From contig NZ_FOZK01000002.1 of assembly GCF_900114435.1 (NCBI RefSeq), forward strand, positions 1 through 64,000: 64,000 bases of DNA, read 5' to 3'. The DNA is from Halomicrobium zhouii (GTDB lineage Archaea > Halobacteriota > Halobacteria > Halobacteriales > Haloarculaceae). This document shows, piece by piece, positions 22,902-58,846 of this stretch. The notes under the pieces were generated by a model that did not search any database, was not told the DNA's origin, and saw only the letters and a program-made list of their open reading frames with translations. Position 1 is the first letter of the stretch; each line of letters opens with the position of its first letter. A program made the position numbers and the translations under genes.

Positions 22902-22974
22902 GCCCGGATGGTGTAGTGGCCCATCATACGACCCTGTCACGGTCGTGACGCGGGTTCAAATCCCGCTCCGGGCG
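22902..22974 (+). tRNA. tRNA-Asp (GTC)
   Basis: The 73-nt gene folds as a cloverleaf. The acceptor arm pairs GCCCGGA (22902-22908) with TCCGGGC (22967-22973), followed by the discriminator G. The anticodon stem CGACC/GGTCG encloses the loop CTGTCAC with anticodon GTC at 22936-22938. The T arm is CGGGTTCAAATCCCG. There is no intron and no encoded CCA. The 3' end of the gene is repeated 210 bp downstream, as described separately. Confidence 0.97.
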
Positions 22975-26566: not shown

Positions 26567-26654
26567 GAGACGGCCTGGTCGGTGTGTGATCGTGTATACT
26601 GTGTGAGTGGTTCTTCTGAATTGGTGTTGGAAGAAACGAGACCGCCAACACCCA

Positions 26655-27273
26655 GAAAGCCCTCGGCGGGCTCCGGTCCCGCGGCCCACCTGCGCTCCTC
26701 GCTGTGCTCCGGTGCTTGGTGGACCGGGGTTCCCGGAGCCCGCCTCGCCCTTTCAGTCCACCGTCAGAGCAAGTCGTTCGAAAGGCGCGGAGCGCCTTTC
26801 GTGATGACGAGAGAGCTTCGGTCTCTCGAACCACTCTGACGAGCCCTCGTTCGCTTCGCTCACGAGGACTCCGAGGCCCGCACCGCAGCCCTGCCCTTCC
26901 CCTTCCACGCGAGCGAAGCGAGTGTGGGCTCGAAAGACGAGGTGTGCCGAGTCTTTCGGTGGGTCGGCCGACGAGACGGCCTCCCGGCCGACCGCTGGGC
27001 GGGTGCGGAGCAGTCAGGAAGCGTGATTCGGCGCGGACGCGCCGAATCCGGGGAGGGTTGGTGGACTCAATCGCGAGCGCGTTTTATCGCGCGAGCGATG
27101 CTGTTCCTGGAGGACTGAAAGGGCGAGGTGCGGTCGACGAAGCACGGCGCAGCAAGTACCGGAGCGAAGTCGTTCGAAAGGCGCGAAGCGCCTTTCGTGA
27201 TGACGAGAGAGCTTCGCTCTCTCGAACCACGAGGAACGCAGCAAGCCGCGCGAGTCGAGCGTACCGAGGGCTT
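26655..27273. repeat. structured noncoding repeat element, copy A
   Basis: The element is bounded by GAAAGCCCTCGG (26655-26666) and CCGAGGGCTTTC (27262-27273). It consists of an inverted module (26655-26759), a 64-bp hairpin block (26771-26834), an 86-bp block shared with copy D (26881-26966), a conserved hairpin with GGAC loop (27011-27056) and a forward module (27112-27273) that itself contains a second copy of the 64-bp block (27167-27230, 62 of 64 identical). Frames inside are arginine-rich shadows, so I regard it as noncoding. It separates two convergent genes. Confidence 0.8.
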
Positions 27274-27419
27274 TCGAGGTGGTTTTGGCCTTAGTCACGT
27301 CGGCAATTCGAACCCCACCGATCGCTAACTCCTTGATCTGTACGTTCCGAACCAGAATCGATGGGCGGCGGACGGCACTGGTCGACGACGCGCTCACGGC
27401 GGCCGCAAGGGGGCACGGC

Positions 27420-36415: not shown

Positions 36416-36822
36416 GAAAGCCCTCTGCGTGCTCGGGTCGCGGGGGCCACCCTGCGCTCCTCACTCCGTTGCGGTGCTTAGGGGTCCCGGCTTCCCCGAG
36501 CCCGCCTCGCCCTTTCATTCCTCCGAGGACCGCACAGCACCGCAGCCCTGCCCTTCCCCGGGTCGCGAGGGCCTCGCTGTTGCTCGGCCACTCGCTCCCG
36601 GCCAGGCGGTGCGGTCAGGAAGCGTGACCCGGAGCGGACGCGACGGGTCCGGGGAGGTTTGGTGGTTCCAATCGCGAGCGCGGGCCGGAGGCCGCGCGAG
36701 CTATGCGGATCCCTGGTGGACTGAAAGGGCGAGGTACGGTCGACGAAGTCCGACGAAGTAAGCACCGCAGCGCCAGCGAGGAGCGCAGCGAGTCGCACAA
36801 GTCGAGCGGGCCGAGGGCTTTC
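36416..36822. repeat. structured noncoding repeat element, copy B
   Basis: This copy has the same order as copy A. An inverted module (36416-36521) starts GAAAGCCCTCTG, followed by a short shared segment ending near 36558. The GGAC-loop hairpin block lies at about 36611-36657, a GC-rich stem next, and a forward module (36718-36822) ends CCGAGGGCTTTC. It lacks the 64-bp hairpin blocks of copy A. It fills the gap between cetZ and the convergent PCMT-like gene. No frame inside looks coding. Confidence 0.8.
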
Positions 36823-48955: not shown

Positions 48956-49050
48956 GCGGTGCCGCGACCGTTGGATGGGCTATCGTCGCGAGCGTTCCTC
49001 ACCCGCCCAGCGGCCCCACGAGTCAAGGCAGTCAGCCCCGAACAGTCCCC

Positions 49051-49893
49051 ATGAACGTGCTCCTGACCGGTGGTGCCGGCACCGTCGGCACCGCCATCAC
49101 CGATCACCTCGCCGACCGCGAGGAGTACCAGCTGACGAGCGTCGACCCGGAGCCCCACCCCGACCCGAACGTCGAGTCGGTCGAGGCCGACGTCGGCGAT
49201 TACGACGCGATCCGGCCCCACTTCGAGGACCAGGACGCCGTCGTCCACCTGGCCCACGCGCCCATCGAGGGGGGCGGCCCGTCGGACCGCTCGATCCACG
49301 CCTTCGACGGGCACCTCGCCAACCTGGAGATTCACGCCAACGCCTACGAGGCGGCCGTCGACGCCGGCGTCGACACGTTCGTCTACGCCTCCTCGAACCA
49401 CGCCGTGGGCATGTACGAGGTCGAACACGCCCCCGACGTCTACTATCCGGACTACGGCCTCACCGTGGACCACACCGTCCAGCCCCGGCCGGACTCGATG
49501 TACGGCGTCGAGAAGGTGTACGCCGAGGGACTGGGTCGGCTGGCCGCCGAGGCCCACGACATGCAGGTGTACGCCCTGCGGATCTGTGCGGTCCGCGACC
49601 CCGAGTACGACCACCCCTACGGTGACGCCGAGGCCGGCGTCGACCGCGGCGAGTTCGAGCGCGACAGCGACGCCTACGCGACCCAGGTCGCCCGGATGAA
49701 GGGGATGTGGCAGTCCCGCCGCGACCACGCCCAGATGGTCGAGCGCTGTTTCACCGACGACTCCGTCGAATTCGACGTGTTCTACGGCGTCAGCGACAAC
49801 GACCGTCGCTGGTTCGACGTCGACCACGCCAGGGAGGTGCTGGGGTACGAGCCGGAAGATAACGGTGAACAGTGGGATACGCCGCCAGAATAA
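49051..49893 (+). CDS. NAD-dependent SDR, Azf/glucose-6-phosphate dehydrogenase-like
   Basis: The 280-aa extended SDR has the N-terminal TGGAGTVG nucleotide motif, an active-site region with VYASSNHAVGMYE and YGVEKVYAE (Tyr-x-x-x-Lys), and the C-terminal VFYGVSDNDRRWFDVDHAREVLGYEPEDNGE. The last two motifs closely resemble those of the haloarchaeal glucose-6-phosphate dehydrogenase Azf and of uronate and sugar dehydrogenases. Oxidation of a sugar or sugar phosphate with NAD+ is likely; the precise substrate is not. Confidence 0.75.
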   Translation: MNVLLTGGAGTVGTAITDHLADREEYQLTSVDPEPHPDPNVESVEADVGDYDAIRPHFEDQDAVVHLAHAPIEGGGPSDRSIHAFDGHLANLEIHANAYEAAVDAGVDTFVYASSNHAVGMYEVEHAPDVYYPDYGLTVDHTVQPRPDSMYGVEKVYAEGLGRLAAEAHDMQVYALRICAVRDPEYDHPYGDAEAGVDRGEFERDSDAYATQVARMKGMWQSRRDHAQMVERCFTDDSVEFDVFYGVSDNDRRWFDVDHAREVLGYEPEDNGEQWDTPPE

Positions 49894-58389: not shown

Positions 58390-58846
58390 ACTCCCTCCTG
58401 GGTGTAGCGCGTCCGCGCCACGACACGCTTCCCGACTGTACCCCCGCCAGAACGAAGTTCTGACGAGCATCGCCTCGCAGTGCTTGGCTCAACGCAACCG
58501 GTCGGGAGTGCGTTTCATCGCGCGACCCACCGAAAGACTTGGCACACCTCGTCTTTCGAGCCCACACTCGCTTCGCTCGCGTGGAAGGGGAAGGGCAGGG
58601 CTGCGGTGCTGTGCGGTCCTCGGAGGACTGAAAGGGCGAGGCGGGGTCCGGGAACCTCGGCCCCGTAAGCGACCGCGAGAGCGTAGCTCTCGCGTAGTCC
58701 TCAGCTTTCGCTGAGGGCACCGGAACGAAGTGAGGAGCGAAGCGGGGCCGCGGGACTGGAGCGCGCCGAGGGCTTTCTGGGTGTTGGCGGTCTCAGTTCC
58801 GATTCTTGAGAGCGCGCCGATGGCTTTCTGGGCGTTCGCTGTCACC
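58390..58846. repeat. structured noncoding repeat element, copy D (truncated, reverse orientation)
   Basis: Read on the minus strand the order is the same as copies A and B: tip and module (58777-58625), the 86-bp shared block (58608-58523) and the GGAC-loop hairpin (about 58426-58402). The other terminal module is missing. Perfect hairpins inside include CGCGAGAGC-GTA-GCTCTCGCG (58674-58694), CCTCAGC/GCTGAGG (58699-58716) and CAGAAC-GAA-GTTCTG (58448-58462). The tip with its flank GAGCGCGCCGA is repeated directly at 58810-58840. It lies between the CNNM gene and the convergent permease gene. Confidence 0.8.

Follow-up and report, generated by a model that had tools for sequence, protein, structure and literature searches.

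The GGAC-loop hairpin that recurs in the window (the 64-kb stretch of DNA analysed here) forms one helix (P5) of a larger element, ~400-500 bases long and unannotated, which is probably a mosaic intergenic repeat of haloarchaea that is mobile but non-autonomous. We favor this reading because the distribution of the element is patchy, orthologous sites can be occupied or empty, and no gene partner accompanies it. The element occurs in high copy number in some genomes, is present or absent at orthologous sites, and has stems that vary from copy to copy and nevertheless remain paired; its hairpin alleles combine freely, and the mismatches tolerated in its stems show a single-strand bias.

Within the window, GGAC-loop hairpins are present in copies A and B as the preliminary description had claimed (GATTCGGCGC-GGAC-GCGCCGAATC and GACCCGGAGC-GGAC-GCGACGGGTC, respectively; Table 1), with stems that differ by whole base pairs: two T-A pairs of copy A are replaced by C-G pairs in copy B, where the stem is also broken by a tandem 5'-GA/5'-GA mismatch. 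In copy A, the hairpin follows the leader AGTCAGGAAGCGTG and is itself followed by a C and the motif GGGGAGG (27049-27056), and in copy B it is followed by CGGGGAGG; the motif after the hairpin is indeed common to the two copies. The leader is kept in copies A, B and D, with the small correction that the copy B leader, GGTCAGGAAGCGTG, starts with G and not, as had been written, with A. Copy D, on the minus strand, retains GCGC-GGAC-GCGC at 58418-58407, after a leader at 58437-58424, again as described, and its lower stem is mostly decayed; a covariance model built from 32 aligned copies recovered copies A and B and missed copy D at E<=1e-6.

The complete element consists of two inverted hairpin units (U) around a core of four helices, P3-P6, and this layout was constant across the repeat places read in the genome from which the window comes. 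Each U unit starts with GAAAGCCCTCGG and ends with CCTCGCCCTTTCAGTCC, and every U folds alone into a hairpin of ~105 nt. The core runs from CCTTCCC (P3) through the P4 hairpin, AGGAAGCGTG and the P5 hairpin to GGGGAGG, the partner strand of P3, and ends in the P6 hairpin. Read on the plus strand, copies A and B have the full order outer flank, inverted U, P2, the 5' strand of P3 (CCUUCCC), P4, the leader AGGAAGCGUG, P5, the 3' strand of P3 (GGGGAGG), P6, CCUGG, forward U and outer flank, the flanks being ~70 nt long with sequence partly common to copies. At one locus, L236 of genome G401, the core is followed by a single U, on the 3' side only. We also observed that the outer element end is at times tandemly duplicated, with a unit of ~51 nt (GAAAGCCCTCGGCGCGCTCTCTGGAGTCGGAATCGAGACCGCCAACACCCA; loci L033, L038, L047 and L049), and that two palindromic insertions of 64 bp are nested in copy A, the second of them close to the apex of its right U. 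The inserted piece also matches plasmids from many haloarchaeal genera.

Table 1. Positions in the window of the parts of copies A, B and D of the element
Feature	Position	Strand	Remarks
Copy A, left U hairpin unit	26655..26759	-	G-rich sense strand is the minus strand; GAAAGCCCTCGG...CCTCGCCCTTTCAGTCC on the plus strand
Copy A, first nested 64-bp palindromic insertion (GTCGTTCGAAAGGCGC...CTCTCGAACCAC)	26771..26834	.	Direct repeat D1, 97% identical to 27167-27230
Copy A, P3 5' strand CCTTCCC	26895..26901	+	Sequence and helix model
Copy A, P4 hairpin GGTCGGCCGACGAGACGGCCTCCCGGCC	26962..26989	+	Sequence and P4 covariation
Copy A, leader AGTCAGGAAGCGTG, conserved	27012..27025	+	Motif search
Copy A, P5 GGAC-loop hairpin	27025..27048	+	Sequence, covariation and anchored pairing test
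Copy A, P3 3' strand GGGGAGG	27050..27056	+	Sequence and helix model
Copy A, P6 hairpin AATCGCGAGCGCGTTTTATCGCGCGAGCGATG, tandem GA/GA internal loop	27069..27100	+	Outer P6 poorly supported
Copy A, right U unit GGACTGAAAGGGCGAGG...CGAGGGCTTTC, holding the second insertion (27167-27230)	27112..27275	+	
Copy A, whole composite element with outer flanks	26582..27348	+	Ends approximate
Copy B, left U hairpin unit	36416..36521	-	
Copy B, P3 5' strand CCTTCCC	36552..36558	+	
Copy B, P4, longer allele with inner hairpin	36561..36603	+	
Copy B, P5 GGAC-loop hairpin, tandem GA/GA	36626..36649	+	
Copy B, P3 3' strand GGGGAGG	36651..36657	+	
Copy B, P6 hairpin	36670..36704	+	
Copy B, right U hairpin unit	36718..36822	+	
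Copy D, leader and P5 remains (GCGC-GGAC-GCGC) of a truncated, decayed element with one U	58407..58437	-	Not recovered by the model

Searching the window for the leader alone, with 2 mismatches allowed, gave 4 matches against 1.56 expected, which is not significant; what goes beyond chance is the whole repeat. When 661 bases around copy A were compared by BLAST with the genome that contains it (G000, haloarchaeal and GC-rich, with 4.25 Mb in 6 contigs), 202 matches at ~41 places were obtained, and the covariance model identified 71 core copies in this genome, 84 in G006 (HArc-gm2, from the same genus), 24 in G029, from another genus, and 7 in G004. HArc-gm2 has been placed near Halomicrobium and Halosiccatus (PMC9726719). 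More broadly, the U 16-mer GGACTGAAAGGGCGAG was found in 59 of 391 Halobacteria genomes, representing 26 of 86 genera, at 1-102 copies per genome, with zero matches for its reversed control; it was missing from three species of the genus to which the window belongs. We considered and rejected a virus origin, given that all 13 matches to the hairpin pattern in viral contigs lacked the flanking motifs and thus represent chance; most of the matches listed in the scan of genomes for this pattern were likewise chance matches, outside Haloarchaea. The element accounts for many unannotated intergenic palindromes in this haloarchaeal group.

Comparison of orthologous sites revealed differences in occupancy. 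At L034 the site is occupied in G000, with compact sites in G006 and G004; at L037 it is occupied in G000 and G006, with a compact site in G004. At two loci compared with empty sites, the intergenic sequence was too diverged for clean junctions or target-site duplications to be read, and therefore we infer insertion as such. Several elements occupy orthologous positions in both G000 and G006, so these have not moved recently. No recurrent linked protein family was found beside the element, the clusters of neighboring ORFs reflecting orthologous contexts only. The genes around 85 copies were convergent in 27 cases, divergent in 18 and tandem in 40, and this mixed orientation, with only a mild convergent excess, led us to reject a cis-regulator or terminator. 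Coding sequence was rejected too, on account of indels of many sizes between copies and the long palindromes that fill the element. The only Rfam matches at the gathering score were to tRNA and RNase P and lay away from the element, and further comparison of the element with Rfam yielded chance-level matches only. In the open-licence papers searched, the repeat is undescribed, and a search for its sequence as text in papers gave no match in an archaeal context.

The proposal that pairing is kept while sequence changes held up. In the 32 aligned copies, P3-P6 were 94.5% paired, with a covariation of 0.250 versus 0.088 for shuffled data. A lack of covariation in a larger alignment would, by the preliminary description, have counted against this proposal, and that outcome did not occur: in 101 copies aligned to the model, from four genomes and a few more, 94.6% of the cells were paired and covariation was about three times that of shuffled data (0.331 versus 0.108), falling to <=0.050 when the partner was slid by 1-3 columns. 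Because this alignment leans towards the model, P5 was retested in an alignment-free manner, with bases paired by their distance from two conserved anchors: among 29 distinct hairpins, the outer 7 pairs were 94.6% Watson-Crick, compared to a mean of 61.7% (maximum 75.4%) for arm-swapped hairpins. For the U units, with 171 distinct outer arm pairs, the outer 11 pairs were 81% Watson-Crick versus 56% (maximum 59%) after arm swapping. Per-copy counts of compensatory changes are inflated by shared alleles, and the distinct-allele test is the one we trust, although the alleles may themselves share ancestry; the outer part of P6 is weakly supported and is not relied on here. Otherwise identical P5 hairpins carry either a GGAC loop or the reverse complement, GTCC, which looks like an inversion of the hairpin (L037, L120 and others).

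Covariation between copies can mislead in this system, however, in that pairs change together when whole hairpins are exchanged between repeats. A search covering eight loci for orthologous positions with well-conserved flanks in G000 and G006 showed the element in both genomes with different hairpins, the P5 alleles differing in all 5 scorable loci. Moreover, P4 and P5 types were combined at random, with 57 combinations among 80 copies compared to 56.1 expected under free shuffling. Taken with the different alleles at orthologous loci, this indicates that copies exchange entire hairpins, most likely through gene conversion. The difference between copies A and B, which had been taken for two compensatory mutations in place, is therefore best read as a swap of ready-made hairpin alleles.

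A palindrome that existed only as a duplex would show G.T and A.C mismatches equally frequently on a given strand, so we compared the two. P3, P4, P5 and P6b, read on the plus strand of A and B, contained 43 G.U and 18 A.C mismatches, a count that leaves out two nearly fixed U.G pairs pointing in the same direction. For U, the 11 outermost pairs, scored on the GGACTGAAAGGG strand, had 108 G.U versus 21 A.C mismatches across the 171 distinct arm pairs, or 43 versus 16 once the two positions with the most wobble pairs were removed. Counting less strictly along entire U stems gave the opposite result (79 G.U versus 124 A.C), apparently owing to an A.C site found repeatedly in the inner part of the stem; the restriction to an ungapped count of the 11 outermost pairs was made after the whole-stem result was known, and the dependence of the asymmetry on region is a weakness of this analysis. 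With each U read in its own outward sense, the left units had 34 G.U versus 3 A.C and the right units 47 versus 8, much of the bias in these subsets coming from two positions. The left and right biases thus fall on opposite strands, and one transcript through the element does not explain both. These observations fit a single strand of each U, RNA or DNA, as the folded form. Folding energy does not pick the strand, given that both strands of copy B fold far better than shuffles (z of -6.2 and -8.7). The earlier conclusion that the hairpin is a folded RNA and not just DNA accordingly stands in one part: G.U is tolerated and A.C is not, so that one strand, and not only a duplex palindrome, seems to be what folds, but a preference for RNA over DNA is unsupported. 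The step from covariation to RNA lacks support: REP, attC and IS200-type single-stranded DNA hairpins can leave the same signature, the U bias lies on opposite strands, and the A-to-B difference looks like an allele swap.

Under the mobile-repeat reading, an enzyme provided in trans would recognize the two U hairpins in their single-stranded, folded form and move the element, and ectopic gene conversion would swap whole hairpins and keep the copies mosaic. Recognition of fold and motif together could account for the conserved pairing and the conserved short unpaired motifs, while leaving the stem sequence free. It is unlikely, in our estimation, that the element is a mobile structured RNA with a transcribed multi-helix core (P3-P6) and U, mobilized by a haloarchaeal protein that reads the fold and not the stem sequence, with stems diversifying and shuffling between copies. 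If such a fold-reading protein did exist, each genome would offer dozens of natural alleles for testing structure-only recognition, and the mobilizing enzyme would be new.

Two further explanations address the folded strand itself. The element could belong to a structured noncoding RNA family in which core P3-P6 and the 3' U are transcribed (plus strand of A and B), fold, bind a protein and act in trans, the copy number being a secondary amplification. The G.U excess in the core helices, the conservation of single-stranded motifs such as the leader, the long-range P3, the locus with a core and only a 3' U, and the covariation that keeps the helices are all consistent with this possibility, which we nonetheless hold to be doubtful given the left U bias on the opposite strand, as strong as that of the right U, the occurrence of copies in every gene orientation, the lack of the element in most related species and the lack of an Rfam family. 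Alternatively, a DNA mechanism alone might keep the palindromes perfect, with hairpin-templated repair or replication copying one arm from the other and the folded strand having no function. In favor of such copying are the near-perfect arms, the flipping of whole stems (GGAC and GTCC loops, and the CGCC/GGCG and GCGC/GCGC alleles at an orthologous locus) and the exchange of whole hairpins between copies; however, the mechanism predicts equal numbers of G.T and A.C mismatches, contrary to the bias in the outer U stem, which persists without the two wobble-rich positions, and the unpaired motifs are conserved, making this explanation quite improbable.

Among known systems, the closest in kind are the PATEs and SMRs of Haloquadratum and the REP/BIME elements, and our element resembles them in style but departs from each in defining features. 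PATEs (palindrome-associated transposable elements) of Haloquadratum walsbyi are derived from IS605-type transposons and have no inverted terminal repeats (PMC3119063). Like them, the present element is haloarchaeal and transposase-free, comprises many heterogeneous copies with palindromes near the ends, and is hit by small nested repeats (PMC3119063), and it could be envisaged as a core-deleted derivative of an IS605-type transposon, with the U units as the near-terminal palindromes. We deem this derivation very unlikely: in contrast to PATEs, the element ends are inverted copies of each other, and neither U nor the core was found at the ends of IS605-type genes in G000 (8 TnpB loci and Y1 transposase matches at 3 loci). 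SMRs (small mobile repeats) of H. walsbyi resemble a single U of ~105 nt in being ~110 bp long, with prominent inverted repeats, no transposase and no target duplication seen, and their copies are reported as highly alike, commonly with >95% identity (PMC3119063). In contrast, the U stems are almost wholly different between copies, as the number of distinct outer arm pairs attests, yet paired. REP/BIME elements of bacteria, like ours, have intergenic hairpins that flank a linker as inverted pairs, occur in many copies and are arranged as mosaics. REPs, however, are short hairpins whose sequence is conserved and which are associated with RAYT transposases, whereas the stems here are variable, the units are ~105 nt long, and no RAYT link was apparent, the Y1 loci of G000 being without a full U. 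MITEs are likewise short, non-autonomous and numerous, with inverted ends, but no parent transposon with the same ends was found near the element in a check covering part of the transposases of the genome, and no target duplication was read at two loci. The multi-helix core with its long-range P3 is more elaborate than a typical REP or MITE.

Elsewhere in the window, ARAGORN identified a tRNA-Ala (ggc) at 49022-49111 on the minus strand, without an Rfam report at the gathering score, and a tRNA-Asp (gtc) at 22902-22974 on the plus strand was also matched by Rfam. In genomes without the full element, the P4 hairpin with the leader CCTGCCCTTCCCCGGGTCG occurs alone, usually at 1-3 copies per genome (loci L241, L242, L244-L247, L249, L250 and L424-L430), and a 19-mer of this module was present in 26 of 145 genomes. 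Lone P4 modules are adjoined by a variable-stem hairpin family of the form AACCG-stem-CGG(A/T)TGCT at L241, L245, L252, L424 and L427. At L242 and L247, the lone P4 is immediately 3' of an apparent citrate synthase gene, and at L246 it is ~200 bases away from the gene for RNase P RNA.
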